A program made the position numbers and the translations under genes. DNA of 64,000 nt from Haloglomus salinum (GTDB taxonomy: Archaea > Halobacteriota > Halobacteria > Halobacteriales > Haloarculaceae): positions 2,108,001 to 2,172,000 of the forward strand of contig NZ_CP101153.1 in the NCBI RefSeq assembly GCF_024298825.1, in the 5' to 3' direction. Position 1 is the first letter of the stretch. Each line of letters opens with the position of its first letter. The notes beneath the pieces were generated by a model. The model saw nothing but the letters and a program-made list of their open reading frames with translations, had not been told where the DNA came from and ran no database searches. This document shows, piece after piece, positions 10,100 through 37,205 of this stretch.

Positions 10100-10870
10100 A
10101 TGGCACTCAGCGAGCCCGGACGGATGGTGAAGTCAGCTCGAACCGCGTTCGAGATCATCGAGTACATCCACGAGCAGGATGGCGCGGAACTGGGTGAACT
10201 GGCCGACCGGCTGGACCTCGCGAAGAGCACGATCCACGGGTACCTGGCGACGCTGGAGTCACTGGAGTATCTGGTCAACGAGGGCGGACGCTACCACCTG
10301 AGTCTCAAGTTCTTCTACCATGGAACCGCGGCCTGCAACTCCGTCCCGATCGCCGGCCTCGCCGACGAGACGCTCCGCTCGCTGGCCGAGGAGACCTCAC
10401 TGGTCGCCTGGCTCGTCGTCGAAGAGCACGGGCGGGCGGTCTACCTCGACCGCGTTGTCAGCGACGACGCCGTCCGGACGTACGGGCGGGTAAGCAAACG
10501 GACCCATCTCCACCGTCCGGCCTCGGGCAAGGCCATCCTCGCGCATCTCCCCGACAGCAGGGTTCGGAACATCGTGGACAGCTATGGGCTTCCGGGCCGG
10601 ACCGAACACACCATCACGGACGAGGAAGCGCTGTTCGAAGAGCTGGCGGGAATCCGTCAGCGCGGGTACGCCATCAGCGAGCACGAGGTCGCACTCGGCG
10701 TCCAGTCGGTCGCCGCGCCGATTCACCACCGCGGTGAGGTTCTCGGGGCGGTCAGCGTCTCCGGGATGTCGAACCAGGTCGACGACGAGTACTTCCAGTC
10801 GGAGCTCCCGGATGTCGTGGCGCTCGCCGCGGCCGATATCGCCGACCGGTACGCCGAGCGCCACGGCTGA
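10100..10870 (+). CDS. IclR-family transcriptional regulator
   Basis: This protein of about 256 residues has an N-terminal winged helix (SARTAFEIIEYIHEQDGAELGELADRLDLAKSTIHGYLATLESLEYLVNEGG). The C-terminal IclR effector domain follows, with RTHLHRPASGKAILAHLP and the cysteine-free ISEHEVALGVQSVAAPIHHRGEVLGAVSVSG block. IclR proteins usually sense carboxylic acids or aromatic compounds and control nearby catabolic operons. Its place at the head of the transporter and carboxylase genes makes it the likely regulator of the ketone island. The start at 10100 (MALSEPGRM) is preferred; an ATG eight codons later is possible. A perfect palindrome overlaps its promoter. Confidence 0.92.
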   Translation: MALSEPGRMVKSARTAFEIIEYIHEQDGAELGELADRLDLAKSTIHGYLATLESLEYLVNEGGRYHLSLKFFYHGTAACNSVPIAGLADETLRSLAEETSLVAWLVVEEHGRAVYLDRVVSDDAVRTYGRVSKRTHLHRPASGKAILAHLPDSRVRNIVDSYGLPGRTEHTITDEEALFEELAGIRQRGYAISEHEVALGVQSVAAPIHHRGEVLGAVSVSGMSNQVDDEYFQSELPDVVALAAADIADRYAERHG

Positions 10871-10912
10871 CCCCCGGCTTCCGGCGTAGTTGCGGATGGT
10901 TCAGGTGAAGCG

Positions 10913-10924
10913 GGTTGTTAAACC
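10913..10924. promoter_or_regulatory. GGTT-AACC palindrome
   Basis: GGTT, GTTA, AACC: perfect 4-base arms resembling the ends of the 10045-10063 palindrome. It lies 89 bases before the secreted-protein gene and is a possible secondary site of the same regulator. Confidence 0.3.
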
Positions 10925-11012
10925 GCCCGTATGTTACGGCATCACGCTTAGTGTGGGGGTGAGACACATGCTGGCACATCCGCTCGAAGGACAGCGGATT
11001 GATCAGTCAGAC

Positions 11013-12308
11013 ATGCACCGGAAAACGCTCATCCTCTGTGTGGCGCTCGGCATGCTCGCCGTCGTGGCGGTCGCTGGGTCCACCAGCGCGCTGTACGCGG
11101 GCGCCAGTCAGACCTCGATGGAACTGCAGGAACAGAACTACGACGGGTCCAACGAGCCGGACAACCCGGACTGTCCGGACCCGAGCCAGTACTCGGAGTA
11201 CAGCGAGTACGGGCACGACTGTGCCGTACCGAACGATCCGAACCCCAACGATCACCCCCTGATGTTCGGGGACGACTTCACCGAGGTCAAGTGGAACTCT
11301 CACTGGTTCTTCTACGGCCCGGGGCAGCACGAACCCGGCTACCAGGGTGCGAGCTACGCCTTCCGCTCCTGGCCGGTGAAGGAGGACGTCGACATGGAGT
11401 ACTTCGAGTATGTGGCCATCTACGCGCCGTGGGGCCGGTTCGGGGGGAACTCCGCCGGCGAGTGTACGGTCGCCGACACCCAGGCGGCCGGCATCGACCG
11501 CGGTAACGACGGAGCCAGCGAGTACCACTCCACCACCGGTGGTGGTGACGACAGCCTGGTGAGTGCGATCCAGAACTCGAAGGTCAACGCAACGTACGGC
11601 TACTTCCAGTTCGCTGGGCCCGACAGCTTCGGTGACCGCAACATCCCACTGAACAGCAGCGATGCCTTCGTCGCCGCGCTCGGTGACTGCTGGGCGAACC
11701 CGAAGGAGGAGGGCTGGTACCGGATGACCATCTGGTTCAACGGGACCGCCTACGACGGGAGCGATGTCGAATGGAAGGGGTACAACCACTGGCAGTACTT
11801 CTGCAGCGACTGTCAGAACCGACAGGACGCCATCGAGAAGTTCGGTCCGCCGGGCACGAACCCGGACAACCCCTGGAAGGACACCACGGTATCGACCGCG
11901 TCGACAGCAACCGCGACCGCGACACCGACACCGACCGTGACGCCCACACCGACGGCCTCCGGGTCCGATAGTACGTCCACCCCATCCCCCACGCCAGGGT
12001 CCGGGAACGAGCAGACCGCGACGGCCACTCCACCACCGACGGCGACACCGACTCCAACGGCGACGGACACGCCGACTCCAACGGCGACGGACACCGCGAC
12101 GGAGACGGCGTCGCCGACGCCAGCCGACCAGAGTGGCGCGAACACGCCGACGGAGACGGCGACAGCGACCAGTGGTGGTGGCTCGAACGACGCCCAGCAG
12201 ACTCCGGATGAAGGGTCACCGACCGCCCAGAGCGGCCCCGGGTTCGGGTTCGTCGTCGCGCTGCTGGGGACGCTCGTGGCCGCTCTGCTGGTTGTGAGAC
12301 GGTCGTAA
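11013..12308 (+). CDS. Secreted surface protein with PGF-CTERM anchor
   Basis: This 431-residue exported protein begins with a Sec-type signal peptide (MHRKTLILCVALGMLAVVAVAG). The extracellular domain (about 30-290) is rich in aromatic residues and Asn/Asp and has several N-glycosylation sequons and paired Cys (CSDCQ). A Thr/Pro-rich stalk (TATATPTPTVTPTPT and similar) follows, then the tripartite PGF-CTERM signal PGFGFVVALLGTLVAALLVVRRS. In haloarchaea that signal is processed by archaeosortase ArtA and the protein is lipid-anchored. The globular domain is not recognised. Its position between the IclR regulator and the importer suggests a role at the surface in substrate capture, but that is inference. 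Confidence 0.82.
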   Translation: MHRKTLILCVALGMLAVVAVAGSTSALYAGASQTSMELQEQNYDGSNEPDNPDCPDPSQYSEYSEYGHDCAVPNDPNPNDHPLMFGDDFTEVKWNSHWFFYGPGQHEPGYQGASYAFRSWPVKEDVDMEYFEYVAIYAPWGRFGGNSAGECTVADTQAAGIDRGNDGASEYHSTTGGGDDSLVSAIQNSKVNATYGYFQFAGPDSFGDRNIPLNSSDAFVAALGDCWANPKEEGWYRMTIWFNGTAYDGSDVEWKGYNHWQYFCSDCQNRQDAIEKFGPPGTNPDNPWKDTTVSTASTATATATPTPTVTPTPTASGSDSTSTPSPTPGSGNEQTATATPPPTATPTPTATDTPTPTATDTATETASPTPADQSGANTPTETATATSGGGSNDAQQTPDEGSPTAQSGPGFGFVVALLGTLVAALLVVRRS

Positions 12309-12365
12309 CACCTGCTGCACCGCTCCCCCCGAACATTCTTATCCGAACACGTCCCGTGCCAACGT
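12309..12365 (+). promoter_or_regulatory. Promoter of the small zinc protein
   Basis: TTCTTATCC (12337-12345) is centred about 25 bases before the ATG at 12366, consistent with a leaderless transcript. Confidence 0.45.
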
Positions 12366-12593: not shown

Positions 12594-12619
12594 ATACCCG
12601 GTGATTGCCCGCAGAATCG

Positions 12620-12649: not shown

Positions 12650-14038
12650 ATGCCGCGAGACAGCGGTGACACCAGAGACGGAACCGTCGACCGTCGCGAT
12701 CTACTGCGATCTGCCATCGCCGGGGCGACGACAGTTGGCATCGCCGGTTGTCGGAGCCTCGATGCGGCGGGTCCGGCGGGCACCGGAAACGAGACGGGTC
12801 CGGGAACCGAGGTACCGAACGACCTGTTCAAGGGTGAAACGCTCAAGATCGGCGGGATGTGGCCCCTCCCCGACGACTACACCATCGGGCGCGACGCACA
12901 GCGTGGTGCGGCACTGGCCGTGAAGGAGCACAACCAGTCATCGAACGGCGTGCTGGGTGCCGACCTCAAACTCCTCAATCGGAGCACCGACATCTCGCCC
13001 GCTGCCTCACGGCAGAACACACGGGAGCTCTGTCTGGACGAGGAGGTCGACGTGCTCAATGGCGGCTTCCTCGGACAGTCGTACAAGCTGATGATGGAGC
13101 CCATCGCGAGCACGCAGACGCTCTCGTACTTCTCGTGTGGGGCGTCGGTGCCCGTGGTCGAGAAGATCGCCAGCAACTACGAGCGCCACAAGTACAACTT
13201 CCGGTCCATCGGGAACATGGCCCAGGCCCGCGACGCGGAGCTCAACTTCCTCGAGACCGCGGCCGACCGGATGGGCTGGGACCGCATCGCCGTCTTCACG
13301 GAGAACCTGGAGGTGTACGATGCGGTCGCGGACCCCCTGGTCCAGGGCATCCGTGACCGGGGAATCGCGGAGGTCCCCATCGCGAAGCGGACCTCGCAGT
13401 CCATCATCGACTGGAAGCCGCTGTTCGACCAGGCCGAGGAGGCCAACTGTGACCTCGTCTGTGCGAACCTGGTCCTCACCGGGATGACCGCAGCCCGGCA
13501 GTGGGGGACCTCCGAGCGCCCGTTCGACTTCGGTGGCATCCACCTGCTCGCGATGGCGCCGGACTTCTGGGAGGCCGTCGGTCGGGTCTCGCCCGGCCTC
13601 TGGACGCTGAACATGGGGGCCTTCGACAGCCAGCAGACCCCCCAGATGTCGACGATGCAGGACCGGTTCAAACAGGAGTACGGCTACAGGACCAGCGCCT
13701 ACTCCTGTTTCTGTGCGTACGATGCGGTCAACAACTGGGTGGAGGCGGTGAAGGCGACCGGTTCCACCGACCCGGAGGACCTCATCCCGTACCTGAAACA
13801 GCGGACCTGGAACGGGAGCATCCTGAAACCGACCCTCGAGTACTACGATGAAGACGCCCAGTACCCGCACGACATCAAGTGGAGCGCACCGGATATCGAG
13901 ACGTGGAACGAGCTGGGGTTCCCGCCCGTGATACAGTGGCAGGGCGAGAAGAATGGGGAGGCTCGCATGGAGACCATCGCCCCCAAGCGGGCGGCGGGCG
14001 GCGAGTACAAGATCAAGAAGACGCCGTGGCTCCGCTAG
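12650..14038 (+). CDS. ABC importer substrate-binding lipoprotein, branched-chain amino-acid type
   Basis: This 462-residue periplasmic-binding-type protein belongs to the LivJ/urea/aromatic-acid family. The N-terminus has a twin-arginine signal (DRRDLLRSAIAGATTVGIAGC) ending in a lipobox whose Cys would be lipidated outside the membrane. The body has the type-I fold pattern: LKIGGMWPLPDDYTIGRDAQRGAALAVKEHN, then a VDVLNGGFLGQ segment and ...TSAYSCFCAYDAVNNWVEAVKATGS. Related proteins bind branched-chain amino acids, amides, urea or aromatic acids; the ligand here is unknown. It heads an operon with two permeases and an ATPase, and its place before the carboxylase genes suggests uptake of a ketone-pathway substrate or acid. 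Confidence 0.92.
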   Translation: MPRDSGDTRDGTVDRRDLLRSAIAGATTVGIAGCRSLDAAGPAGTGNETGPGTEVPNDLFKGETLKIGGMWPLPDDYTIGRDAQRGAALAVKEHNQSSNGVLGADLKLLNRSTDISPAASRQNTRELCLDEEVDVLNGGFLGQSYKLMMEPIASTQTLSYFSCGASVPVVEKIASNYERHKYNFRSIGNMAQARDAELNFLETAADRMGWDRIAVFTENLEVYDAVADPLVQGIRDRGIAEVPIAKRTSQSIIDWKPLFDQAEEANCDLVCANLVLTGMTAARQWGTSERPFDFGGIHLLAMAPDFWEAVGRVSPGLWTLNMGAFDSQQTPQMSTMQDRFKQEYGYRTSAYSCFCAYDAVNNWVEAVKATGSTDPEDLIPYLKQRTWNGSILKPTLEYYDEDAQYPHDIKWSAPDIETWNELGFPPVIQWQGEKNGEARMETIAPKRAAGGEYKIKKTPWLR

Positions 14039-14051
14039 GAGGTGGACAGGA

Positions 14052-14921
14052 ATGGTCAACATCACCAACATACTGATAAGCGGAATCGCGATCAGCTCGC
14101 TGTACGCGCTCGTAGCTATCGGCTTCACCCTCATCTTCGGCGTCGGCGGGGTATTCAACCTCGCCCACGGGGCTTTGCTCGCGCTCGGGGGGTTCACCTC
14201 CTACTTCATCTCCTTCCGGTACGGGCTCTCCCCGATACTGGGCCTCGTCGGCGCGGTCGTCGTGACGGGGCTCGTCGGCGGCGTTCTCTACCTGCAGGTG
14301 ATCGAGCCCGTCGAGGACAACACCGTGGCGGTGCTGATACTGACACTGCTCGCGGGCTTCCTCATCCAGTTCGGCTTCGGCATCTTCGTCACCAAGCAGA
14401 CGATCTCCATCCCGCAGATCGCTCCCGGGTCGGTCAGCATCGCCGGGACGAGTATCCAGAACAACACGATCTTCGTCTTCGTCTCGGCCGTCGTCCTCAT
14501 GGCTGGGCTGTTCGTGCTCGTGGAGCGGACCGACATCGGGAAGGCGATCATCGCAATGAGCATGAGCGAGAAGGGTGCCTCGCTCGTCGGCATCGACCAG
14601 CGCCGGATGAAGCTCTACACCTGGGTGCTGGCGGCCATGTTCGCCGGGTTCGCTGGCGTCCTGCTGACCTCGTACCAGACGGGACAGTGGAACATGGGCC
14701 TGCAGCCCCTCCTGCTGTCGTTCACCATCGTCATTCTCGGCGGGCTGGGGTCGATCAAGGGGAGCATCATCGCCGCCTACCTCATCGGCTTCGTCGAGAC
14801 CATCACGACATCGGTGGTCAGCTCCCAGCTGACCGGGGTCGTTCCGCTCTCCCTGCTGATCGTGATTCTGCTCGTGCGGCCACAGGGACTGTTCGGGCGG
14901 GGGGTGGATACAGATGTCTGA
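14052..14921 (+). CDS. livH: Branched-chain-type ABC permease LivH
   Basis: This 289-residue integral membrane protein of the LivH family starts MVNITNILISGIAISSLYALVAIGF. It carries the family motif FNLAHGALLALGGF near the N-terminus and the cytoplasmic-loop region RRMKLYTWVLAAMFAGFAGVLLT that contacts the ATPase. About eight hydrophobic helices are visible. The gene follows the binding protein after 13 bases and overlaps the second permease by 8 bases, indicating one translationally coupled operon. Confidence 0.93.
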   Translation: MVNITNILISGIAISSLYALVAIGFTLIFGVGGVFNLAHGALLALGGFTSYFISFRYGLSPILGLVGAVVVTGLVGGVLYLQVIEPVEDNTVAVLILTLLAGFLIQFGFGIFVTKQTISIPQIAPGSVSIAGTSIQNNTIFVFVSAVVLMAGLFVLVERTDIGKAIIAMSMSEKGASLVGIDQRRMKLYTWVLAAMFAGFAGVLLTSYQTGQWNMGLQPLLLSFTIVILGGLGSIKGSIIAAYLIGFVETITTSVVSSQLTGVVPLSLLIVILLVRPQGLFGRGVDTDV

Positions 14922-16062
14922 CAGCTTCCTGCGGGGGCTCCCGCGCCGGTACTACCTCGGCCTGGTGTTCCTCGTCGCCCTCGGGCTCTCGCCCGTCGTC
15001 ACGACGCAGACCCAGCTGATCACCATCATCGGTATCCTCTACCTGATGATGTTCGCGATGACCTGGGACGTCGCCTCGGGCTACACCGGCCAGCTCAACC
15101 TCGGACACGCCGCGTTCATCGCGGTTGGGGGCTACACGACCGCGATCCTCAACATCACGCACGGGGTCTCACCGCTGGTCAGTATCCCCGTCGCGATGGT
15201 GCTGTCCGGGCTTGCCGGACTCGCCATCGGCATTCCCGCGCTCCGTATCCGCGGTGCGTACCTCGCCCTCGTCACGCTCGTCATCCCGACGATATTCTTC
15301 CAGATCGTCATCCTGTTCGACGGTGTGTTCAAGGGTTCGTTCGGCTTCAAGAGTCCGCCGACGAGTCTCGCCGGCACCGGCGGGAGCACTGGTGCCCTCG
15401 TCACCGTGAACCGCTCGGCGATGGCCACCATCATCGACTTCTACATCTCGTATGCGGTGCTGCTGGTGCTGTTCCTTGTGCTGTTCGCCTACACCCGGAG
15501 CGACTCCGGGCGGATCCTCTCGGCCATCCGAGAGGACGAGGACGCGGTCGTCGCCGCCGGAATCGCCCCGGCCAAGCACAAGGTGTTCGCCTTCGTCCTC
15601 AGCGCGATGACCGCCGGCCTCGCCGGCGCGCTGTTCGTCCACTCCACCGCCGGCTTCCCGCACCCCGACCAGCTGCTCGCCGACACGCTGAGCCTGAACA
15701 TCGTCATCGTCAGCGTGCTCGGCGGCCTCGGAACCATCGTCGGGCCGATGGTGGGTGCGCTCCTGTTCGGTGGGCTCCAGTTCGTCGCCGGGGAGTTCGA
15801 TGTCGCGCTCCCGATGCTGGAGCAGACGTTGAGCGATGTCATCCCGGTCGTGCTGTTCGTCCTCGGCATGGTCGTGGTGTACTACCGGCCCGAGGGGCTG
15901 GTGCCGGCGCTGCTCCAGCGGAGCGAGCCGGAGCTAGAGGACCCCGCGAGACGCCCGTCGGAGACAGCCGCAGACGGCGGAACGACCCCGGTCGAACAGG
16001 TTGCGGAGAAACAGGCGGAATCGCTCCCGAAGAGCGGCCAGACACAGGACAATGAGTACTGA
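14914..16062 (+). CDS. livM: Branched-chain-type ABC permease LivM
   Basis: This 382-residue permease of the LivM family carries the signature YTGQLNLGHAAFIAVGGYT near residue 50 and the LRIRGAYLALVTL segment. The coupling-loop region is EDEDAVVAAGIAPAKHKVFAFVLSAMTAGLAGALF. The last 60 residues form a charged cytoplasmic tail (ELEDPARRPSETAADGG...), longer than usual. It overlaps livH and the ATPase gene, so the three are translationally coupled. Confidence 0.93.
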   Translation: MSDSFLRGLPRRYYLGLVFLVALGLSPVVTTQTQLITIIGILYLMMFAMTWDVASGYTGQLNLGHAAFIAVGGYTTAILNITHGVSPLVSIPVAMVLSGLAGLAIGIPALRIRGAYLALVTLVIPTIFFQIVILFDGVFKGSFGFKSPPTSLAGTGGSTGALVTVNRSAMATIIDFYISYAVLLVLFLVLFAYTRSDSGRILSAIREDEDAVVAAGIAPAKHKVFAFVLSAMTAGLAGALFVHSTAGFPHPDQLLADTLSLNIVIVSVLGGLGTIVGPMVGALLFGGLQFVAGEFDVALPMLEQTLSDVIPVVLFVLGMVVVYYRPEGLVPALLQRSEPELEDPARRPSETAADGGTTPVEQVAEKQAESLPKSGQTQDNEY

Positions 16063-16849
16063 CACACCCGAGCGGTCGACCGGCGGGCCTGGGTCACGAA
16101 CAGCACGCGATTCGGACGACGGGATGCTCGTCGTCGACAACCTGCGCAAGGAGTTCGGTGGGCTGGTCGCGGTCGATGACCTCTCCTTCACCGTGCAGGA
16201 GCAGGAGATACTGGGGTTCATCGGCCCGAACGGTGCCGGGAAGTCGACCACGTTCGACTGCATCATGGGCGCCCACAAACCGACCAGTGGCACCGTCCGG
16301 TACCGGGGAGAGGACGTGACGGGGTACCCGGGTGATGCGATGATCAAGCGAGGGATGGCCCGGACGTTCCAGGATTTCGCCCCGCTCGATGACCGGACGG
16401 TCGTCGAGAACGTCGCGCTCTCGTTGATGCCCGACCGGCTCGTCTCCACCTCCGGGTTCCAGCAGGAGACGGAAGAGATCGCTGCCGAGATCTGTCGCCG
16501 GGTCGGGCTCGGGAACCGGCTCCGGTCGACTCCCGGTGAGCTCCCCCACGCCGGGCTGCTCCGGCTGGAACTGGCGCGTGCAATCGCGACCGACCCCGAC
16601 CTGGTGCTGGTCGACGAGCCGTTCGCCGGCCTCTCGAGTCAGGAGGTCGCGGAGATCTCCGAGCTGCTCGAGTCGCTGCGCTGGCGGGGCATGACGTTCA
16701 TCGTCGTCGACCACAACATGCGCGGGCTGCTGGATCTCATCGACCGGGCTATCGTCATCCAGTTCGGGTCGAAGATCGCCGAGGGCCCCCCAGAGACGAT
16801 TACCGACGACGAGGTCGTCCAGAAGGCCTACCTCGGGGAGGGGATGTGA
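16052..16849 (+). CDS. livG: Branched-chain-type ABC ATPase LivG, atypical signature
   Basis: This 265-residue ATP-binding subunit has Walker A GPNGAGKSTTFDCI, Walker B LVLVDEPFAG and a switch His in FIVVDHNM. The usual LivG block FQ (ARTFQ) is also present. The ABC signature, normally LPYGQ or LSGGQ, reads LPHAG before LLRLELARA. The partner ATPase LivF, present in nearly all such operons, is absent here. The importer therefore may use this protein as a homodimer or borrow a LivF from elsewhere. The ATG at 16052 overlaps livM by 11 bases; an N-terminal 26-residue polar extension precedes the ATPase domain. Confidence 0.92.
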   Translation: MSTDTPERSTGGPGSRTARDSDDGMLVVDNLRKEFGGLVAVDDLSFTVQEQEILGFIGPNGAGKSTTFDCIMGAHKPTSGTVRYRGEDVTGYPGDAMIKRGMARTFQDFAPLDDRTVVENVALSLMPDRLVSTSGFQQETEEIAAEICRRVGLGNRLRSTPGELPHAGLLRLELARAIATDPDLVLVDEPFAGLSSQEVAEISELLESLRWRGMTFIVVDHNMRGLLDLIDRAIVIQFGSKIAEGPPETITDDEVVQKAYLGEGM

Positions 16850-22086: not shown

Positions 22087-22095
22087 GTGATACCA

Positions 22096-28612: not shown

Positions 28613-29032
28613 ATGGCGAAGACATTCCCAAGCGACGAATGGTTCGACGAACTGGGGGACCGACTGAACGCGAACGAGACCTACACCGAGCAGGCCGAAG
28701 GCTGGGGCGTCGACTTCGACGGTGACTTCATCTTCACCATCGAGGCTGGCGATGGGCTCCCGGAGACCTACCACTACTTCATCGGCCTCGAGGACGGCGA
28801 CTGCACTGGGACTCGTCCGGTCGACAATCCGGCCGAGGTCGAGAACGGCTTCGAGCTCTCCGGCCCGTACGGGAACTGGCAGTCCCTCGTCCGCGGCGAG
28901 ATGGGCGCCATCGAGGGTATCATGGGTGGCGACTTCGAGCTGGACGGGAGTATGAACACCTTGCTCAAATATCAGGACGCCGCGACGACGTTCGTGGAGT
29001 CCTGTTCGGAGATCGAGACGGAGTTCGCGTGA
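28613..29032 (+). CDS. SCP2 sterol-binding-domain protein
   Basis: This 139-residue single-domain protein resembles the SCP2 lipid-binding fold: FDGDFIFTIEAGDG, YHYFIGLEDGDCTG, GPYGNWQSLVRGE and a C-terminal GDFELDGSMNTLLKYQDAATTFVE. Such domains bind hydrophobic ligands such as fatty acyl-CoA. It lies between the CoA ligases and the second carboxylase operon with its own AT-rich upstream region (AGATTTTTACTG). A role in carrying a hydrophobic ketone or acyl-CoA is inference from position. Confidence 0.75.
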   Translation: MAKTFPSDEWFDELGDRLNANETYTEQAEGWGVDFDGDFIFTIEAGDGLPETYHYFIGLEDGDCTGTRPVDNPAEVENGFELSGPYGNWQSLVRGEMGAIEGIMGGDFELDGSMNTLLKYQDAATTFVESCSEIETEFA

Positions 29033-29371: not shown

Positions 29372-31306
29372 ATGGAAACGACAATCGACATCGACACAGG
29401 CGGAACGTTCACGGACGGCACCGTCAGGCGCGGTGACGAGGTATGGACGCTCAAGACGTCCACGACACCCCATGACCTGACGGTCTGTTTCTCCGATATC
29501 ATCGAACAGGCGGCCGCCCTGTTCGAAGAAGAACCACGGGAGTTGCTCACGACGGTCGACTGCATCCGATACTCGACTACTATCGGTACCAACGCGGTCA
29601 TCGAGCGTGAGGGGGCGAACGTGGGGGTTCTGACCCCCCGGACATCTCTCGGCCAGCTGGAGAGCTACGACGCCTCGCTCGTGGACGATATCCTCGAACA
29701 GGGAGCCCAGCGGGAGCTGGCGAGCGCCTCTGACTCCCGACAGACAGCGAAGCGGTACAACGACCTGGCCGAGGAGTTGAGCGACAACATCGTCGTCGGG
29801 ATGGACTCACTGGAGTCCGAACGAGCCATCCAGGACGTTCTGCTGGACGAACAGCCCCAGCACTACCTGGGGAGCGTTCCGTTGCATCTCACGCACGAAC
29901 TGACAAGCGACCCCGACGACCAGCGGCGCCTCAGGACGACGCTGGTCGACTCGTACCTGCACCCCTCGCTCGGGGAGTTCCTCTACCGGGCCGAGGACTT
30001 CCTGCGCGACCACGGGTACGACAACCCGCTGCTCGTCTTCTGCAACGACGGCGCCTCGACCCGGGTCGCCAAGACGACGGCGCTCCAGACCTACAACTCC
30101 GGCCCGTCAGCCGGCATCCAGGGTGCGGCCGAGATGGCGACCCTGTACGACGCATCGGACGCGGTCGCACTCGATATCGGGGGGACGAGTGCCGACGTGG
30201 CACTCATCCGGGACGGTGCGGTCGCACGCGACGAGTTCGGGGAGGTCGAGGGCGTCGAGGTATCCTTCCCGATGCGGAAACTCTTCCCGGTCAGTGGCGG
30301 TGGCGGCACCGTCGCGAAGGTCGTCGGTGACGACCTCGAACTCGGGCCCGAGAGTGCGGGGGCGAATCCGGGCCCGGCGTGTTACGGCCTCGGTGGCCGG
30401 CGGCCGACGGTCACCGACGCGGACGTCGTCTCGGGTATCATGACACCCGGGTTCTTCGCGGGCGACGAGGTCTCGCTCGACGCCGACCGGGCCCGGAGCG
30501 TCATCGAGGAGCATATCGCCGAACCGCTCGGGCTCACGCCCGAGGAGGCTGCACTCGAGATTCGCAACCGGCTCGAGGGACAGATCGGGTCGTTCATCCG
30601 CGAGAAGCTCTCCAGCCGCGATATCGCTCCCGCCGAGGCGACGCTCGTCGTGTACGGGGGGGCCGGTCCGACCCACGCGTGTGGTGTCGCCCGCAATGCA
30701 GGCATCGAGCGTATCGTCGTCCCGTCGTATCCGTCGGTCTTCAGCGCGCACAGCGTCGGTTTCAGCGACGTCGTGCACGACTACCACTTCCGCGCAGCGG
30801 AGCAGAACGACCTGGACGGGCTCTCGGACGAGGTCGGCCGCTTGCGACAGCGGGCTCGCCGCGACATGGAGGGCGAGGGCTTCGGAGCTGACGAGGTCGA
30901 ACTGTCCTGGCACGTCAGCGGCGTCACCGGAACCGAGGCCACCGACCTCGGAGCCGTCGACCCGGCCGAGGCCGAATCCGAACTGGCGGCGCGACTCGAC
31001 GACTACGACCAGGCCGTCCTGACGCTCACCGCGACCGCACAGCTCCCGACGAACACGTTCACCCCGCGACTGTCGACCACGACCGAGCTGGAGCCGGCCA
31101 GCGAGAGCGACATCGCGTGGCAGACCGCCGATGGGCAGGCGACCGCGTCGACTCCCGTCTTCGACTACCGGGAGATCGAGGGCCAGGCCTCGGCCGCGGG
31201 GCCTGCAGTGCTGCGTGACACCTCGACGACATACGCGATTCCCCCCGACTGGCGGTTCGAGATCAACGAGTACGGACACATGGTCATCACTGCGGAGGAC
31301 AGCTAA
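29372..31306 (+). CDS. HyuA-like carboxylase subunit (ApcA-like)
   Basis: This 644-residue (about 69 kDa) HyuA-type protein of the actin-like ATPase fold has DIDTGGTFTDGT at the N-terminus, STTIGTNAVIERE, NSGPSAGIQGA, DIGGTSADVALI, VSGGGGTVAK and GPESAGANPGPACYG. It also has a central YGGAGPTHACG. It is shorter than the neighbouring HyuA protein. With the small zinc protein, second HyuA, HyuB and roughly 31-kDa protein downstream it reproduces the subunit set of acetophenone carboxylase, where the 70-kDa ApcA is a HyuA homologue (family knowledge from memory). Its stop overlaps the next start by one base. A long leader with a short open frame precedes it. Confidence 0.72.
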   Translation: METTIDIDTGGTFTDGTVRRGDEVWTLKTSTTPHDLTVCFSDIIEQAAALFEEEPRELLTTVDCIRYSTTIGTNAVIEREGANVGVLTPRTSLGQLESYDASLVDDILEQGAQRELASASDSRQTAKRYNDLAEELSDNIVVGMDSLESERAIQDVLLDEQPQHYLGSVPLHLTHELTSDPDDQRRLRTTLVDSYLHPSLGEFLYRAEDFLRDHGYDNPLLVFCNDGASTRVAKTTALQTYNSGPSAGIQGAAEMATLYDASDAVALDIGGTSADVALIRDGAVARDEFGEVEGVEVSFPMRKLFPVSGGGGTVAKVVGDDLELGPESAGANPGPACYGLGGRRPTVTDADVVSGIMTPGFFAGDEVSLDADRARSVIEEHIAEPLGLTPEEAALEIRNRLEGQIGSFIREKLSSRDIAPAEATLVVYGGAGPTHACGVARNAGIERIVVPSYPSVFSAHSVGFSDVVHDYHFRAAEQNDLDGLSDEVGRLRQRARRDMEGEGFGADEVELSWHVSGVTGTEATDLGAVDPAEAESELAARLDDYDQAVLTLTATAQLPTNTFTPRLSTTTELEPASESDIAWQTADGQATASTPVFDYREIEGQASAAGPAVLRDTSTTYAIPPDWRFEINEYGHMVITAEDS

Positions 31307-31725
31307 TGGCACACAGCGAACACGGTACGAATCAGGGCGTACAGACCGACGGAATCGAGGCCGAGGTCGGGCTCGACGAGCCCGCCGTCGTCCCGATCAC
31401 GCCGTACCTCGGCATCGACCTCGACGTCGAGCAGTGGCGGTGTCGGCGCTGCGGCGAGGAACTCGACGACGCCACGGAGAACTACAAGCACGGGCTCCTC
31501 GTCAACGAGCGGGACCCGAGCGAGATCCACCGGCCGCTCATCGGCGACGAGTACGAGTACACCTACTCCCCGGACTCGGAGTGGTGCCGTATTCTGGAGT
31601 ACTACTGCCCCGGTTGTGGGGCACAGGTGGAGACGGAGTACCTGCCCCCCGGGCATCCACCGACGAACGAGATTCAGCCGGACCTCGACTGGCTCCGTGA
31701 GCGCTACATGGAGGGAGACACATGA
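31306..31725 (+). CDS. Small zinc subunit of ketone carboxylase (ApcB/AcxC-like)
   Basis: This 139-residue (about 16 kDa) acidic protein has two zinc knuckles, Cys46/Cys49 (CRRCGEEL) and Cys101/Cys104 (YYCPGCGAQVETEYLPPGHPP). The sequence after the second knuckle parallels the gamma subunit of acetone carboxylase (YCPECYQLLDVD...PVGYP). It overlaps both flanking HyuA genes (1 and 4 bases), so the three are translationally coupled. Its size fits ApcB (15 kDa) of acetophenone carboxylase. A gamma-like subunit argues for carboxylase rather than hydantoinase function. Confidence 0.75.
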   Translation: MAHSEHGTNQGVQTDGIEAEVGLDEPAVVPITPYLGIDLDVEQWRCRRCGEELDDATENYKHGLLVNERDPSEIHRPLIGDEYEYTYSPDSEWCRILEYYCPGCGAQVETEYLPPGHPPTNEIQPDLDWLRERYMEGDT

Positions 31726-33851
31726 AACGCGTCAGTGTCGATATCGGCGGAACCTTCACCGACTGTGTGGTCGCGTGGGGCGACCAGCGTGTCGAGTCCA
31801 AGGCGCCGACGACGCATCACGACCTCACCGAGGGGTTCATGGAGGCGCTGACGGCCGGTGCGGAAAAAATCGACCTGTCCGTCGAGACGGTGCTCTCGGA
31901 TGTCGATTCGGTCAGGTACGGGACCACGCTCGGGACGAACGCGCTCATCGAGCGGACCGGTGAGCGCGTCGGCCTCATCACGACGAAGGGCCACGAGGAC
32001 ACCATCCGCATCGGCCGAGGGCGCCAGTACGGCGATGGCCTCTCTATCGAGGACCAGGCTGACATCCCGGGCGCCGACCGACCGGACCCGATCGTCCCCT
32101 CGGACTACCGCTACGGCATCCGCGAACGGGTCGACTACAAGGGCGATGTCCTGCTGGAGGCCGACCGAGAGGAGATCCGCGAGGTCGTCAACTCGCTGGT
32201 CGATGACGGCGTCCGCGCCATCGCGGTCGTGCTTCTGAACAGCACCGTCAATCCGGTCCACGAGCTCCTCGTCGAGGAGATCGTCAACCAGGAGTACCCG
32301 AGCAACGTCCTCGGATCGACGCCGGTCGTCCTCTCTCACCGGGTGACGGGCAAGAACGGGGAGTACATGCGCAGCAACGCGACGGTCATCAACGCCTACC
32401 TCCACCGCATCATGCGGGAGGGGCTGCAGGACATGCAGTCGGTCCTCCGGGACCACGGCTACGAGAAGCCGCTCCAGCTCGTCCACAACACCTCCGGGAT
32501 GGCCCAGCTGGGCAAGACCTACGCCATCCAGACGATGCACGCGGGGCCCGTCGCGGGACTGGGCGCCGCCCAGCAGCTCGCCGACGAACTCGACGACGAG
32601 AACCTCATCACGACCGACATGGGTGGCACGAGCTTCGATATCGGGGCCGTCACGGAGGGTGAGGTCTCGCTGTACGAGTACGAGCCCATCATCGACCGGT
32701 GGCTCATCAACATCCCGATGGTGTACATGAAGACCATCGGCGCTGGCGGGGGGTCGATACTCGGCTACAACTCCGCGGAGGATGTCATCACGGTCGGCCC
32801 GGAGAGCGCGGGGTCGGACCCCGGCCCGGCGTGTTACAACCGTGGCGGCCGTCGGGCGACGGTGACCGATGTCGACGTCGTACTGGGGTATCTCAACCCG
32901 GACTACTTCTGGGGCGGCGAGCTGGAGCTGGAGGAGCGGCTCGCCCGACGCGCCGTCCGCCGCGACATCGCGGAGCCGATGGACGTGAGCGTCGAGGAGG
33001 CCGCCGCCGCTGCGAGACAGGTTGTCGACACGAAGATGGCCCAGACGATGTTCAACGAGATCTCGCTGCAGGGCTACGACCCACGGAACTTCTCCATCCT
33101 CTCGTACGGTGGGGCTGGCCCGACCCACGCGTGCGGGTACGCGGAGGAACTGGACGTCGAGAAGGTCATCGTGCCGCCGTTCAGCCCCGTGCTGTCGGCG
33201 GCCGGTGCTGGCAACCTCGACCAGATGCACATGTACGAGCAGTCGGTCTACCTCGAACTGTTCGACGGTGAGGGGCAGACGTACTTCGACGATTACGAGC
33301 AGTTCAACGACGTCGTCGCGACACTCCAGGACAAGGGCCGGCGTGACCTCCTCGACGAGGGCTACTCGGCCGACCGCATCCAGCACACTGTGGAGTGCGA
33401 CCTGAAGTACGGTGTCCAGCTGCAGACGACGACGGCTCGGAGTCCGGTCGAGACCATCGACGACCGGGAGGACCTGCTGCGGTTACTGAAGGCCTTCCGC
33501 GACTCCTACGGGGACAACTTCGGCGACGAGGCCCACATGCCGAGCTCGGACATCAACCTCATCACCATCCGGGTTCAGTCCTACGTGGAGCAACCCCGGA
33601 TGGAGTACACCTCGACCGGCGATGCGGCGGCGCTGACAGACGGTGCCGGGACGCCGGACACCGGGCGCTCCCGGTCGTGCTACTTCGGCGGCGAGTTCGT
33701 CGAGACGCCGGTCCACCGGTTCACCGAGATGGGGACCGGCGCCGTCGATGGGCCGGCCATCGTCGAGCACCCCGAGACGACCATCGTGGTCAACGACGGC
33801 TGGACCTTCGACCGGACGCCGGCCGGCGTCTCGTATCTCAGGCGACAGTGA
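31722..33851 (+). CDS. HyuA-like carboxylase subunit (ApcD-like)
   Basis: This 709-residue (about 77 kDa) second HyuA-type subunit has VDIGGTFTDCVVAW, GTTLGTNALIERTG, the long-chain family block KGHEDTIRIGRGRQYGDG, MHAGPVAGLGA, DMGGTSFDIGAVT and GAGGGSILGYNS. GPESAGSDPGPACYN and YGGAGPTHACGYAEELDVEK follow. Acetophenone carboxylase has two different HyuA-type subunits, while acetone carboxylase has one; the presence of two unequal ones here supports the Apc-type architecture. ATP would be used in each to activate substrate and bicarbonate, as inferred from the family. Start and stop overlap or abut neighbours in the operon. Confidence 0.75.
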   Translation: MKRVSVDIGGTFTDCVVAWGDQRVESKAPTTHHDLTEGFMEALTAGAEKIDLSVETVLSDVDSVRYGTTLGTNALIERTGERVGLITTKGHEDTIRIGRGRQYGDGLSIEDQADIPGADRPDPIVPSDYRYGIRERVDYKGDVLLEADREEIREVVNSLVDDGVRAIAVVLLNSTVNPVHELLVEEIVNQEYPSNVLGSTPVVLSHRVTGKNGEYMRSNATVINAYLHRIMREGLQDMQSVLRDHGYEKPLQLVHNTSGMAQLGKTYAIQTMHAGPVAGLGAAQQLADELDDENLITTDMGGTSFDIGAVTEGEVSLYEYEPIIDRWLINIPMVYMKTIGAGGGSILGYNSAEDVITVGPESAGSDPGPACYNRGGRRATVTDVDVVLGYLNPDYFWGGELELEERLARRAVRRDIAEPMDVSVEEAAAAARQVVDTKMAQTMFNEISLQGYDPRNFSILSYGGAGPTHACGYAEELDVEKVIVPPFSPVLSAAGAGNLDQMHMYEQSVYLELFDGEGQTYFDDYEQFNDVVATLQDKGRRDLLDEGYSADRIQHTVECDLKYGVQLQTTTARSPVETIDDREDLLRLLKAFRDSYGDNFGDEAHMPSSDINLITIRVQSYVEQPRMEYTSTGDAAALTDGAGTPDTGRSRSCYFGGEFVETPVHRFTEMGTGAVDGPAIVEHPETTIVVNDGWTFDRTPAGVSYLRRQ

Positions 33852-33894
33852 CGGCGAGCACAGGCACGGAACCGACATCACACCGGATACGACA

Positions 33895-36234
33895 ATGACA
33901 GACGACACCCCAGACGACGCGACCGACCGAAAGGCCGACGGCGGCGTCTCACAGGCGGCGCCCGTCGCCGAGGACGAGCGGAGTATCGAAGCCGAGATGA
34001 CCGAATTCCTCGAAGGCGAGGAACTGTTCGAGGGGCCGGATCGGGAGATAATGGAGCAACACTCCATGGAGCCCCGGACGGACCGTCAGGAGGCGGCCCT
34101 CGACGCGATCGCCGACGAGGACGTGACCCGGATGGTCGTCAACAACCAGCTTCAGGCCATCGGCAACGAGGGACTGGACATGGCGATGCAGATCGCCTCC
34201 TCGCCCGGGGCGAAGTGGGGCGACCTCATCACGGGCCTGTTCACCCGCGAGGGCGACCTGGCGGTGGCCTCCTCCAGTGGCGTGCTGTCGTTCATCGTCC
34301 TCCAGGGCCTGCCCATCAAGCACGTGATGAAGAAGTGGCGGGAGAACCCCGACTACGAGATCAACGAGGGGGACGTGTTCCACCACATGGACGCCCGGTA
34401 CGGGAACATCCACAACGCCGACCAGAGCACGTTCATCCCGGTGTTCGATGGCGACGAGCACATCGCGTGGGCGAGCTGTGTCATCCACGAGGGCGAGAAC
34501 GGCTCGACTGAACCGGGTGGCATCCCCGGCGACGCCGAGAGCCCGTACGACGAGGGGCTGAAGACCCAGCCGATGAAGATCGGCACGGACTACGAACTGG
34601 ACGAGGAGCTCATCACGTTCTTCCAGAACTCCACCCGGGACAAGAAGCTCACCCGGAACGACCACCAGGCGCGGCTGGCGTCGGTGATGCGGATGATAGA
34701 CCGCATCGACGAGGTCATCGACCAGTACGGTGCCGACCACGTGGTCGGGGGCTTGCGCCACTCGCTGGAGTCGGCCGAGGAGGAGATGCGAGCCCGCATC
34801 GAGGCGACCCCCGACGGAACCTACCGGCACACCACGTTCGCCGACAGCACCCTCAAGGAGGACTGTCTCATCAAGATCCCCTGTGAGATTACCATCGAGG
34901 GCGACGAGATCACCATCGACTACCGCGGCGCCGGGCCCGAGTTCGACGACCGGGCGACCAACGCCATCTTCGCGTCGCTCAAGAGCGTCCTCATGCCGGC
35001 GTTCCTCAACTTCATCTGGCCGGACCTGCCGCGGAACCAGGCGATTTTCGAGCCGGTCCACATCGAGGCCGACAGGGGCTCCATCGTCCACTGCACCCGC
35101 GAGGTCCCGAACGCCCAGAGCATGATGACGCTGTTCCCGGCGTTCTCCTCGATGGAGCAGTCGATGATGAAGGCGCTCTATCCCGAGTTCACGCAGGAGA
35201 ACCGCTCGGAGGCCACGGACATCCACGCGAACCACTACAACTGTATCAACGGCTGGACCTACGGTGGGACCAACCAGCACGGGGACTTCGTCGGCAACAT
35301 CGTGACCGACATCAACACGATGCCCGGCGCCGCCCGCTGGGACCGCGATGGGCTCCACTCCCAGGCCGCCTTCTTCTGTGCGATGGGTGACATGGGCGAG
35401 ACCGAGCACTACGAGGAGGAGTACCCCTTCGTGGCGCTCTCGCGGGCGCGGCTCCTGAAGGACCTGCAGGGTTTCGGCCGCTACCGTGGCGGCCACGGCC
35501 ACCAGCAGGTGTTCACCCACAAGAACACCCCGGCGTGGGCGTGGCTCGCGACCGGCATCGGGTCGCGGTTCCCCTCGGTCCACGGGCTGTACGGGGGCTA
35601 CGGCGCCCCGGCCATCCCCGCCGGCCGCATCAAGGACGCCAACGTCCTCGAGCTGCTGGAGGAGGACCCCGAGGACTGGGAGTACGACATTCCCGACCTG
35701 ATGCAGGAGAAACCGCTCGACGGGGAGTACACCACCTGGGACCTCGGTCTGCAGCAGGAGCTGGCCGAGGAGGGTGAGGTCTACTGGGTGACTCAGGGGG
35801 CCGGCGGTGGCCTCGGTGACCCCATCGAACGCGACGCCGAGTCGGTCCTCGAGGACCTGGAGAAGGACCTCATCTCCGAGTGGGTCCTCGAGAACATCTA
35901 CGAGGTGGCCTACGACGAGGAGACCATGATGGTCGACGAGGCGGCCACCGAGGAGCGCCGCGAGTCGAAACGTGAGCAGCGACTGGAGGAGGGCGTCCCG
36001 TTCGACGAGTTCGTCGATGACTGGGAGACGGAGACGCCGCCGCTCGACATGCCGTACTTCGGCTCCTGGCACGACAAGGAGGAGATCTACGCGGGCTGGG
36101 TCAACCAGCGGATGGCTCCCGACGAGCTGGAGGGCATGCCGATGAACTTCTTCCGCACGCAGGCGCCCGCACTGTTCGACACCCCGAAGTACCCGCCACG
36201 GCCGGAGTACAAGGGCGACCTCAGCGACGACTAG
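33895..36234 (+). CDS. HyuB-like carboxylase subunit (ApcC-like)
   Basis: This 779-residue (about 88 kDa) HyuB-type protein would be the carboxylating subunit. The metal-type triad seen in AcxB is kept with the same spacing: His173 and Asp176 (GNIHNADQS), and His198 (CVIHEGENG). Family blocks VRTR-like LPRNQAIFEPVHIEADRGSI, the RGGHGHQQVFTHKN region and QGAGGGLGDPIERDAESVLEDLEKDL are visible. It is clearly diverged from the two AcxB proteins, so it is not another recent copy. The ATG at 33895 lies 43 bases after the preceding stop. Size fits the largest Apc subunit. Confidence 0.75.
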   Translation: MTDDTPDDATDRKADGGVSQAAPVAEDERSIEAEMTEFLEGEELFEGPDREIMEQHSMEPRTDRQEAALDAIADEDVTRMVVNNQLQAIGNEGLDMAMQIASSPGAKWGDLITGLFTREGDLAVASSSGVLSFIVLQGLPIKHVMKKWRENPDYEINEGDVFHHMDARYGNIHNADQSTFIPVFDGDEHIAWASCVIHEGENGSTEPGGIPGDAESPYDEGLKTQPMKIGTDYELDEELITFFQNSTRDKKLTRNDHQARLASVMRMIDRIDEVIDQYGADHVVGGLRHSLESAEEEMRARIEATPDGTYRHTTFADSTLKEDCLIKIPCEITIEGDEITIDYRGAGPEFDDRATNAIFASLKSVLMPAFLNFIWPDLPRNQAIFEPVHIEADRGSIVHCTREVPNAQSMMTLFPAFSSMEQSMMKALYPEFTQENRSEATDIHANHYNCINGWTYGGTNQHGDFVGNIVTDINTMPGAARWDRDGLHSQAAFFCAMGDMGETEHYEEEYPFVALSRARLLKDLQGFGRYRGGHGHQQVFTHKNTPAWAWLATGIGSRFPSVHGLYGGYGAPAIPAGRIKDANVLELLEEDPEDWEYDIPDLMQEKPLDGEYTTWDLGLQQELAEEGEVYWVTQGAGGGLGDPIERDAESVLEDLEKDLISEWVLENIYEVAYDEETMMVDEAATEERRESKREQRLEEGVPFDEFVDDWETETPPLDMPYFGSWHDKEEIYAGWVNQRMAPDELEGMPMNFFRTQAPALFDTPKYPPRPEYKGDLSDD

Positions 36235-36251
36235 GGCGGGCCATCCTAGCT

Positions 36252-36278
36252 CTGGCGTGGGTTCCGACACCACGCCAG
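36252..36278. terminator. Stable hairpin between HyuB-like and ApcE-like genes
   Basis: CTGGCGTGG and CCACGCCAG form perfect 9-base arms around a 9-base loop, 18 bases after the HyuB-like stop. GGTTTAACG follows (36279-36287), a possible TATA element for the next gene. It could attenuate, terminate or protect the upstream mRNA end. Confidence 0.4.
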
Positions 36279-36317
36279 GGTTTAACGTGTCGTCGGTCCA
36301 ACCTCGGGTCGAGTCGG

Positions 36318-37205
36318 ATGAGTGTACCAGTGTTCGACGGCCAGTTCGTCTACGTACCGCTGTATCAGGACTACGCCGCACGGGTCGGTGACGAGATGCC
36401 CGACCGACCCTGGACCGACCCCGTCGGTTGGTCGACGGCGTTGCGACAGACCGCCGACCTCGTCGGTCCGGATGTGGCCGCCGTCTCCGGTGTCGACGCT
36501 CTCGCCGCGGACCTCGAAACGGCCGATGGGGCCGACCTCGCGAGTGTCCGGTTCGACGAGGCACTGGGCCCGGGCGTCGAGGGGTTCGCCGAGACCATCG
36601 GTATCGTCGCGGATGTCCGTTCGGAGCCTGTCGGTGCCGTCCTGCCGAGCCCGGCGACGGTCTGTGTCGACCAGCTGGGCGCCGACTGGCTCGATGCCGT
36701 CGCAGCCGACGAGTTCGCTGCTCTCGACGCCCTTCACGAGGCGGGCCAGGCGGTGACTGATGTCATCCGGTCGCTCGAGGGGACCGTCGACGTTCTGCTG
36801 CTCGATGAGCGTGGCCTGGAGACGGCCCGTGACCGGGGACTGTCACTCGATGACGCGCTCCTCGAGGCGGGGGCCGTGTTCAACACCGCCGACCACCACG
36901 GCCTGCGTGTGGTCGGTCGCTTCCCGTCTACGCTTCGGGGCGATGCCGCGGCGCTTCTCGACGAGTACGATGTGGTGGCGTTCGAGGCGCTGCCACCCGA
37001 GGCCGCCGAGTCGCTGGCCGACGTTTCCGGTCGAACCGGTGGCTCGCTGCCCGCGGCGGTGTGGTCTGCGGAGCCGGCGACGTTCGAGTCCCGCGTTGAA
37101 TCCTTCCAGAATGCGCTTCCGGAGGGGTTCGTGTGGCTCGTACCCGTTCCCGCCACCGCCGCGCCCGAGCGTGTCCAGCGCTTCCGCGAGCTGCTCGGTC
37201 GGTGA
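36318..37205 (+). CDS. Candidate ApcE-like protein, about 31 kDa
   Basis: This 295-residue acidic soluble protein begins MSVPVFDGQFVYVPLYQDY. I do not recognise a conserved domain. A weak TIM-barrel-like pattern (DVLLLDERGLETARDRG, GLRVVGRFPSTLRG, EAGAVFNTADHHG) is visible. It lies directly downstream of the four carboxylase subunit genes on the same strand. Its size agrees with the fifth, loosely bound subunit ApcE (about 34 kDa) of acetophenone carboxylase. That identification rests on position and size only. A hairpin and a TATA-like element before it allow separate expression. Confidence 0.5.
   Translation: MSVPVFDGQFVYVPLYQDYAARVGDEMPDRPWTDPVGWSTALRQTADLVGPDVAAVSGVDALAADLETADGADLASVRFDEALGPGVEGFAETIGIVADVRSEPVGAVLPSPATVCVDQLGADWLDAVAADEFAALDALHEAGQAVTDVIRSLEGTVDVLLLDERGLETARDRGLSLDDALLEAGAVFNTADHHGLRVVGRFPSTLRGDAAALLDEYDVVAFEALPPEAAESLADVSGRTGGSLPAAVWSAEPATFESRVESFQNALPEGFVWLVPVPATAAPERVQRFRELLGR

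Follow-up and report, generated by a model that had tools for sequence, protein, structure and literature searches.

Acetone-carboxylase and acetophenone-carboxylase-type gene sets side by side in the haloarchaeon Haloglomus salinum

A 64,000-nucleotide stretch of the genome of Haloglomus salinum (bases 2108001–2172000 of the 4.19-Mb contig NZ_CP101153.1; hereafter the window, with positions counted from its first base) was analysed using open reading frames (ORFs), their translations and Pfam scans. Two different ATP-dependent carboxylase families were found side by side in it, an acetone-carboxylase (Acx) unit and a set of the acetophenone-carboxylase type (Apc), as judged by the closest solved chains, by phylogeny, by the subunits present and their metal and zinc ligands, and by the order of the genes. 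This had been proposed by an earlier reading of the letters alone (the sequence-only reading), and the components listed there, namely acxA-acxB-acxC, a second acxB, two CoA ligases, an SCP2 protein, HyuA-type proteins of 644 and 709 residues, a zinc protein of 139, a HyuB-type protein of 779 or 780 and a 295-residue protein, were all located among the ORFs and Pfam matches. With a probability of roughly 0.7, the island is suggested to encode two biotin-independent, ATP-dependent ketone carboxylases, in which a second AcxB (AcxB2) would serve as an alternative metal subunit and Apc would act on a second ketone, more likely a small or aliphatic one.

By spacing, the genes fall into two groups, acxA-acxB1-acxC-acxB2-CoA ligase 1-CoA ligase 2-SCP2 and, after 339 bases, apcA-B-C-D-E, in which neighbouring ORFs overlap or stand at most 83 bases apart. 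Across the 12 genes from acxA to apcE, the ratio of nonsynonymous to synonymous substitution rates (dN/dS) between the window and G400, a sister species of the same genus, was at most 0.132. What the sequence itself shows is the family of each protein, the presence of the ligands, the order of the genes, their conservation and the purifying selection on them.

The two carboxylase gene sets

The Acx unit opens with acxA (17636–19801, plus strand, as are all genes of both groups), encoding an ATP-binding HyuA-type subunit of 721 residues which was assigned by phmmer (1.8e-189 to 5svb_B) and by tree. It is followed by acxB1 (19798–22086) for the metal-binding HyuB-type subunit (1.7e-171 to 5m45_A), by acxC (22096–22617, with its start at 22087 or 22096) for the zinc gamma subunit of 173–176 residues (Pfam Acetone_carb_G, 2.5e-34; 7.5e-41 to 5svb_C; four cysteines in the translation), and by acxB2 (22721–25012), a paralogue of acxB1 (9.5e-170 to 5m45_A). 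The order acxA-acxB-acxC with a gamma subunit is that by which Acx is recognised in passages of PMC5214803, and the Glu/His/Asp/His metal ligands named for AcxB in a passage of PMC10865871 are conserved in both AcxB1 and AcxB2 as Glu89, His150, Asp153 and His175. In a tree of ApcD and AcxB sequences (95 rows, less one L078 row of 2 residues, one overlong L104 row and L102), the window and its archaeal relatives contributed 14 AcxB rows, which formed a single 15-row clade with Xanthobacter 5m45_A, with a support of 100. Acx subunits are expected to be longer than those of Apc and hydantoinases. The lengths of AcxA (721), AcxB (762/763) and AcxC (173–176) fit those of Acx; yet the ApcD of the island (780) exceeds AcxB, and the two types cannot be told apart by length here.

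Downstream of acxB2 lie two genes for AMP-forming CoA ligases, both with Pfam AMP-binding domains. Ligase 1 (25097–26716) passed the cut-off of a generic subfamily of long-chain ligases (486 bits, cut-off 476), and in relatives without window-type Apc it comes after acxC or after the remains of acxB2. Ligase 2 (26860–28446) is kept with Acx in three relatives (G253, G215 and G401), and a small SCP2-like protein (28613–29032; Pfam SCP2, 3.5e-4, with a score of 21.3 that only equals the cut-off) is 90% identical to its counterpart beside Acx in G401. Because they are present beside Acx in relatives lacking window-type Apc, the ligases and SCP2 are taken to belong with the Acx unit. In an enzyme built from AcxA, AcxC and either AcxB1 or AcxB2, AcxA would be the site at which bicarbonate and acetone, or another small ketone like it, are phosphorylated, and the divalent metal of AcxB would join the activated ketone and bicarbonate to give acetoacetate. 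The adjacent CoA ligases may then activate acetoacetate for thiolysis by a thiolase encoded elsewhere.

The Apc set comprises genes for ApcA or alpha' (29372–31306, 644 residues), a second ATP-binding HyuA-type subunit with its best match to 5l9w_b (3.3e-95); ApcB or gamma (31306–31725, 139 residues), the zinc subunit (6.9e-36 to 5l9w_C vs 4.7e-8 to the acetone carboxylase gamma subunit); ApcC or alpha (31722–33851, 709 residues), ATP-binding and HyuA-type (1.8e-161 to 5l9w_B); and ApcD or beta (33892–36234, with a start at 33892 or 33895, 779 or 780 residues), metal-binding and HyuB-type (1.9e-83 to 5l9w_A). Among solved chains each core subunit was nearer to its own Apc counterpart than to Acx or hydantoinase, and in the comparison as a whole AcxA, AcxB1, AcxC and ApcA to ApcD matched their own solved chains with E values from 7e-36 to 2e-189, a similarity well beyond what chance would give. 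The Asp/His/Asp/His metal site of ApcD is conserved. In the tree, ApcD shares an Apc clade of 37 rows (support 100) with 5l9w_A of Aromatoleum. That reference lies on a different branch of the clade, while ApcD belongs to a 19-row subclade (support 100) that also includes sequences from Alpha-, Beta- and Gammaproteobacteria, Actinomycetota and Helicobacter suis. ApcC grouped with bacterial ApcC in a 22-row set with a support of 99.

Since every large subunit is a relative of HyuA or HyuB, the second set could also be read as a hydantoinase- or oxoprolinase-type amidohydrolase. This is very improbable: solved hydantoinase and oxoprolinase chains scored much more weakly than those of Apc (2e-92 vs 1.8e-161 for ApcC, 4e-29 vs 1.9e-83 for ApcD and 3e-56 vs 3e-95 for ApcA), and zinc, alpha' and epsilon subunits are present, which hydantoinases lack. 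In the trees, ApcC and ApcD stood apart from the hydantoinase-like rows, among which the sequence-only reading had expected to see them were they not carboxylases, while the HyuB encoded elsewhere in the same genome did fall with those rows; these were labelled by their gene neighbours, neither tree holding a characterised hydantoinase. In the alpha tree, where 108 of 138 rows passed a length filter, they were a hand-picked subset, and no Aromatoleum row was included. The amidohydrolase reading was therefore rejected for ApcC and ApcD by scores and trees. Outside the window, the genome's own HyuAB genes (G000:C1:3309222-3320281; L001, L168) have PF05138 (PaaA/PaaC-type) genes and a thiolase gene as neighbours at a distance of no more than about 11 kb.

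The criteria for Apc in passages of PMC5214803 concern gene order, subunit lengths, tree place and motifs. The gene order apcABCD(E) and the place in the trees agree with these, and ApcD (780) is longer than the length criterion expects. Of the R/KERiDsxG fingerprint (PMC5214803, in part), RERVDYKG was seen by eye in ApcC, with a difference at the s position, and nothing comparable was seen in ApcA; ATP motifs of the ASKHA type were likewise recognised by eye in ApcC (DIGGT, DMGGT, GSDPGP) and in ApcA (DTGGT, DIGGT, GANPGP). The two large middle subunits had earlier been thought to stand in swapped gene order, which does not hold, as the order is that of Aromatoleum apcA-B-C-D-E, where apcC encodes the 80-kDa HyuA-like and apcD the 75-kDa HyuB-like subunit (PMC5214803, in part), and only the relative sizes differ. 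Scores against the NCBIfam acetophenone-carboxylase equivalogs were far under their cut-offs (ApcA 376.7 of 1250 bits, ApcB 138.4 of 250, ApcC 577.4 of 1500 and ApcD 308.1 of 1500), and the set was therefore named Apc-type and not acetophenone carboxylase. By analogy with the tentative assignment for Aromatoleum, ApcA would be the kinase for bicarbonate and ApcC the kinase for the ketone, with the metal of ApcD, the zinc of ApcB and ApcE taking part in the carboxylation of a second ketone, for which a small or aliphatic compound is more probable than acetophenone.

The fifth subunit, ApcE or epsilon (36318–37205, 295 residues), gave no significant match to Pfam, to NCBIfam including its ApcE model, or to sequences of Protein Data Bank chains, and solved ApcE (9fou) was reached by fold search alone. 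An AlphaFold2 model built with 24 fifth-ORF sequences had a mean predicted local distance difference test (pLDDT) score of 90.3 and a predicted template modelling score of 0.89. It shows the eight-stranded beta/alpha barrel of uroporphyrinogen decarboxylases (URO-D; Z up to 26.5, 290 residues, 2.9 Å) and matched 9fou with Z 21.0 over 267 residues at 3.5 Å and 15% identity (Foldseek probability 1.00, template modelling score 0.65). By the fold of this model, the 295-residue protein is assigned as the epsilon subunit of Apc; as 9fou was released in December 2025, the fold is not new. The underlying alignment (A2) held 24 of 36 candidate fifth ORFs, the near-copies L068 and L069 being left out along with L073, L074, L075, L096, L097, L099, L102, L110, L111 and L139, which had no clear BLAST relation to the ApcE-like groups. 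Among the 24, nine matched the NCBIfam ApcE model and eight the MtaA models at E ≤0.1, and eight matched Pfam URO-D at E ≤1; those of the window, G013 and H. suis matched none of the Pfam URO-D, NCBIfam ApcE or MtaA models. All six fifth ORFs of another haloarchaeal type (L067–L072) exceeded the Pfam URO-D cut-off, and that of L067 also matched the NCBIfam ApcE model (28.9 of 450 bits). At the bacterial Apc loci L094, L104, L106 and L112 no candidate fifth ORF was found. That several fifth subunits are URO-D-like by sequence and the divergent one of the window by fold may help to explain why the epsilon subunit has been elusive. Genes for CobW-family GTPases were also observed downstream of apcE at three bacterial Apc loci (L087, 17821-19170; L092, 15341-16651; L093, 15535-16545), directly so in L092 and L093, and possibly encode a metal chaperone for the carboxylase.

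The two AcxB copies

The relationship between AcxB1 and AcxB2 was examined in a tree on residues 171 to the end. Here AcxB1 grouped with the window-type AcxB of G401, G253 and G215 (100/100), and a single clade of the AcxB1 and AcxB2 of the genus was rejected by the approximately unbiased (AU) test (p 1.2e-7), the group tested having been defined after the earlier ApcD/AcxB tree had been seen. The duplication therefore predates the split from the genus of G253 and G215. A clade of AcxB2 with the AcxB of G407, a genome of another genus, gave p 0.127 in the AU test. A recent duplication within the genus of the window had been considered before: with G253/G215 alone as outgroup, 52 of 79 changes fell to AcxB2 and 10 to AcxB1, with 17 unclear, a reading which was withdrawn. 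With two outgroups, 26 changes were counted on the AcxB2 line and 19+7 on the AcxB1 line (the 19 being shared with G253/G215), with 19 unresolved and 8 split between outgroups, and a recent duplication was then rejected by the tree test.

Between the window and G400, dN/dS was 0.094 for acxB1 and 0.122 for acxB2, so both are under purifying selection. The two copies differ from each other unevenly along their length, at 20 of 510 bases in codons 1–170, 53 of 690 in codons 171–400 and 85 of 591 in codons 401–597, with corresponding synonymous divergence (dS) of 0.10, 0.26 and 0.45. The simplest reading of this gradient would be that the 5' part of the two genes has been homogenised by gene conversion. 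In a passage of PMC10865871 a tryptophan patch near the metal is proposed as the metal filter of acetone carboxylase; a Ser/Trp difference between AcxB1 and AcxB2 at residue 419 lies outside the four named filter tryptophans, and those four positions are identical in both copies.

It is proposed that AcxB1 and AcxB2 may be alternative metal subunits which share AcxA and AcxC and are tuned to different substrates or metals. Alternatively, AcxB2 could be a duplicate in the course of being lost, with no function of its own. In G401, which belongs to the same genus, acxC and ligase 1 are 424 bases apart, and within this interval lie stretches that match the start of acxB2 (82% over 142) and its end (78% over 201), with nothing substantial between the two and with both ends scoring higher to acxB2 than to acxB1; in G253 and G215 there is only one acxB of the window type. 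Such a loss is nevertheless thought unlikely for the window, as both copies are intact in its genome (with all ligands) and in G400, show the low dN/dS values given above and have been distinct since before the split of the genera. In a second haloarchaeal Acx type, seen at four of ten mapped acx loci (L080, L081, L082 and L085, in genomes of three family codes), acxB is likewise present twice, apparently of independent origin, with some 3 to 4.4 kb between the copies, and these genes form two groups across the four genomes, with supports of 96 and 93.

Distribution and substrate evidence

The occurrence of both systems was surveyed in 392 genomes drawn evenly from the order, among which the genome of the window is G000. 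The zinc subunit family was found in 40 of these, and ApcD was matched at E ≤1e-60 in 11 (G000, G013, G222, G076, G153, G216, G107, G303, G018, G001 and G032). Only G000 and G303 of the 11 had two zinc-subunit matches; the second set of G303 is weak, with an in-frame stop, and the contig of G013 ends within apcB. AcxB relatives at 1e-150 were present in 23 of 146 genomes of the family. The whole island from the IclR regulator to the gene of a protein here called X, both described below, is found in G400 with identities of 92–100%, while in G407 acxABC and apcABCDE lie on different contigs, the latter on one of 420,925 bases. In G401 the Acx unit is present with its two ligases and SCP2, and window-type Apc is missing (best ApcC match 37%), and G253 and G215 have IclR-acxABC-ligase 1-ligase 2 without acxB2 or window-type Apc. 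From the separation of the two in G407, G401, G253 and G215 it follows that Apc is a separate module, which would have been placed beside Acx in this genus.

Six other haloarchaeal Apc sets (G222, G076, G153, G216, G107 and G303) resemble that of the window in having IclR upstream, the four core genes apcA to apcD and a fifth protein, which in all six exceeds the Pfam URO-D cut-off; their fifth gene, however, lies between apcA and apcB, they form a separate tree branch, and ApcC identity is 43–44% for the four aligned. The ApcC of the window is 80% identical to that of G013, up to 49% to bacterial ApcC and 39–44% to six other haloarchaeal rows aligned. From these identities, the Apc module is perhaps of bacterial origin. 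In three small-genome members of the order (G018, G001 and G032), apcD, B and C were observed with a gene between D and B (L073, 7683-8474; L074, 1497-2345; L075, 1475-2269) which by eye resembles a short-chain dehydrogenase and not a protein of the URO-D type.

The neighbours of Apc in relatives were considered for what they may say of the substrate. In G407 and G013, protein X lies beyond apcE and is followed by an oligonucleotide/oligosaccharide-binding (OB)-fold protein and a thiolase, and G407 also has a CoA ligase gene before apcA. This context fits a 3-oxoacid product which would be activated to a 3-oxoacyl-CoA and cleaved. The thiolases exceeded only a generic cut-off (428 and 432 of 420); their next-best model was acetyl-CoA acetyltransferase (385 and 391 of 600), with that of benzoylsuccinyl-CoA thiolase scoring far lower (195 and 210 of 750). 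In H. suis (L101), a thiolase gene (over the cut-off of the acetyl-CoA C-acyltransferase subfamily) and 3-oxoacid CoA-transferase A and B genes (over their cut-offs) stand directly before apcA. In a passage of PMC3234257, an acetophenone-carboxylase-like cluster of Helicobacter bizzozeronii near scoAB and fadB is compared to acxABC of Helicobacter pylori (scoAB-fadB-acxABC). The Apc of H. suis belongs to the same ApcD subclade as that of the window; H. suis has thiolase and scoAB-type genes upstream, whereas the window has CoA ligases and no thiolase was found nearby. By analogy, this suggests that small ketones are favoured for at least part of the subclade.

The same evidence bears on the possibility that both enzymes of the island act on the same small ketone, such as acetone or butanone, and differ in affinity or energy cost, so that the pair would represent redundancy and not range. 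The gene contexts of H. suis and H. bizzozeronii speak for this, as does acetyl-CoA acetyltransferase being the best specific model, although under its cut-off, for the thiolase beside haloarchaeal Apc. On the other hand, no thiolase or CoA-transferase was found beside the Apc of the window, the window ApcC and ApcD stand with those of G013 on a separate branch, and the authors of PMC3234257 thought, in the passage concerned, that an alternative pathway was possible, given less than 30% similarity to acxABC of H. pylori. A shared substrate is thus regarded as possible but on the unlikely side.

The sequence-only reading had suggested that the second ketone was perhaps aromatic. In its strongest form, Acx would act on acetone and Apc would be a true acetophenone carboxylase feeding benzoyl-CoA, for which one may cite the five subunits in the order of Aromatoleum, the nearest solved relatives being acetophenone carboxylase chains, and the presence in the genome of phenylacetyl-CoA epoxygenase-type genes (PF05138). 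The PF05138 genes are however found in G000, G400 and G401, the last of which has no window-type Apc, and are absent from the Apc-bearing G407 and G013 (the latter 78% complete); they therefore do not track Apc. No match to BoxB was found in G000, G400, G401, G407 or G013, a weak point in that the model also gave none over its cut-off in 14 control genomes, and a search of the genome for CoA-transferase family III gave no lead. With all four core equivalog scores far under their cut-offs, ApcD outside the sub-branch of Aromatoleum and the acetoacetate-type context in H. suis, an aromatic substrate is considered quite improbable, and a small or aliphatic ketone is preferred.

Flanking genes, counter-evidence and comparison with known systems

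As the sequence-only reading had stated, an IclR-family regulator and an ATP-binding cassette (ABC) importer precede the two gene groups. The regulator gene (10070–10870, plus strand, with a start perhaps slightly downstream; Pfam IclR_C, 4e-34, and HTH_IclR) is retained near acx in G400, G401, G253 and G215. The Liv-type importer, also on the plus strand, consists of a substrate-binding protein (12665–14038; Pfam Peripla_BP_6; 100% identical in G400), two permeases (14046–14921 and 14914–16062; Pfam BPD_transp_2 twice) and a single ATPase (16055–16849; Pfam ABC_tran once). Between the regulator and the importer (11010–12308), an apparently secreted Thr/Pro-rich protein with a hydrophobic C-terminal stretch was noted, which is 92% identical in G400 and has no Pfam match. 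The G+C content at 6–38 kb was 61.5–67.6% and that of the rest of the window 64.7–75.0% (2-kb steps), two ranges which overlap, and no tRNA gene that might mark an insertion point was found within the window.

Convergent with apcE lies the gene of protein X (37246–38430, minus strand), which belongs to no Pfam family and is conserved from about residue 47. It adjoins apcE in all four genomes found with window-type Apc (G000, G400, G407 and G013). Its relatives are located at L066 2558-3634, L190 7969-9153 and L196 11479-12660, and matches were found in five of the 392 genomes, two strong (G000 and G013) and three weak (2e-5 to 6.4e-4). The structure model had a pLDDT of 43.6, too low to be of use. 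From its conserved stretches CC and HHPRC, a metal or redox role may be guessed at, and protein X is possibly a new accessory protein of Apc. A more detailed proposal, in which one AcxA-AcxC core would take exchangeable AcxB1 and AcxB2 with gene-converted N-termini and a diverging central region (the part where the tryptophan patch near the metal lies in Xanthobacter), while a small-ketone Apc would use protein X as its partner, is offered as a speculation that is unlikely to be right in all its parts.

Several points weigh against the favoured explanation of two ketone carboxylases with alternative AcxB subunits. The wider ApcC clade has a support of 94, and ApcA was joined to bacterial ApcA with only 91, on a long branch; the equivalog scores of the Apc core are low, and the group in the AU test was chosen with a tree already in view. 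No thiolase gene was seen beside apcE among the scanned ORFs of the window, unlike in G407 and G013, and the Helicobacter context comprises one organism and one paper, the authors of which allowed for another pathway, and need not apply to the archaeal branch. AcxB2 could be a back-up copy instead of an exchangeable subunit. Only one importer ATPase was found among the scanned ORFs, where two are usual, and in G401 the ATPase is present only as fragments beside acx. The reactions, the substrates, the exchange of subunits, regulation by IclR, the direction of any transfer and what protein X does are all inferred.

In the open-licence literature, judged from listings, no description of a haloarchaeal acetone carboxylase or of a combined archaeal island was found, which agrees with the earlier view that no such island with both enzyme types is known to have been described; what PMC10547907 gives is an annotation of a general kind, in its table of prophage regions. 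The novelty of an Apc-like gene is narrower, since Dead Sea fosmids reported in 2011 held an acetophenone carboxylase gene 45% identical to that of Azoarcus (PMC3236060, in part), and such a gene had thus been seen in a hypersaline setting before. According to passages of PMC5214803, the Apc characterised by 2017 came from a single species, and Aromatoleum holds both Apc and Acx. Ketone carboxylases fix bicarbonate without biotin, and the enzymes named in the passages cited here are bacterial only; the locus offers salt-adapted archaeal forms of both types. The AcxB pair on one core would be a natural test of metal and substrate choice, an open question in the passage of PMC10865871, and the locus gives grounds for questioning whether members of a bacterial subclade should be called 'acetophenone carboxylase'. 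Both enzymes belong to kinds already known; what merits testing is the pair of AcxB subunits and the view of Apc as an enzyme for small ketones.

Compared with AcxABC of Xanthobacter autotrophicus (5m45/5svb) and Aromatoleum aromaticum, the haloarchaeal Acx is alike in its A-B-C order, metal ligands and four-cysteine gamma subunit, and differs in the extra acxB after acxC and in the two AMP-forming CoA ligases within the unit. The tryptophan-patch positions 401, 408, 438 and 479 are Trp, Tyr, Ala and Phe in both AcxB copies of the window, unlike in the known enzyme. The Apc of the window resembles ApcABCDE of Aromatoleum (core 5l9w, epsilon 9fou) in its five subunits, its Asp/His/Asp/His site and its URO-D-fold epsilon subunit, and the gene order A-B-C-D-E is the same, with different relative sizes of ApcC and ApcD (709 and 780 residues here; 732 and 684 in the solved chains). 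It is unlike the Apc of Aromatoleum in belonging to another subclade, in being archaeal and in having no ligase gene directly after apcE.

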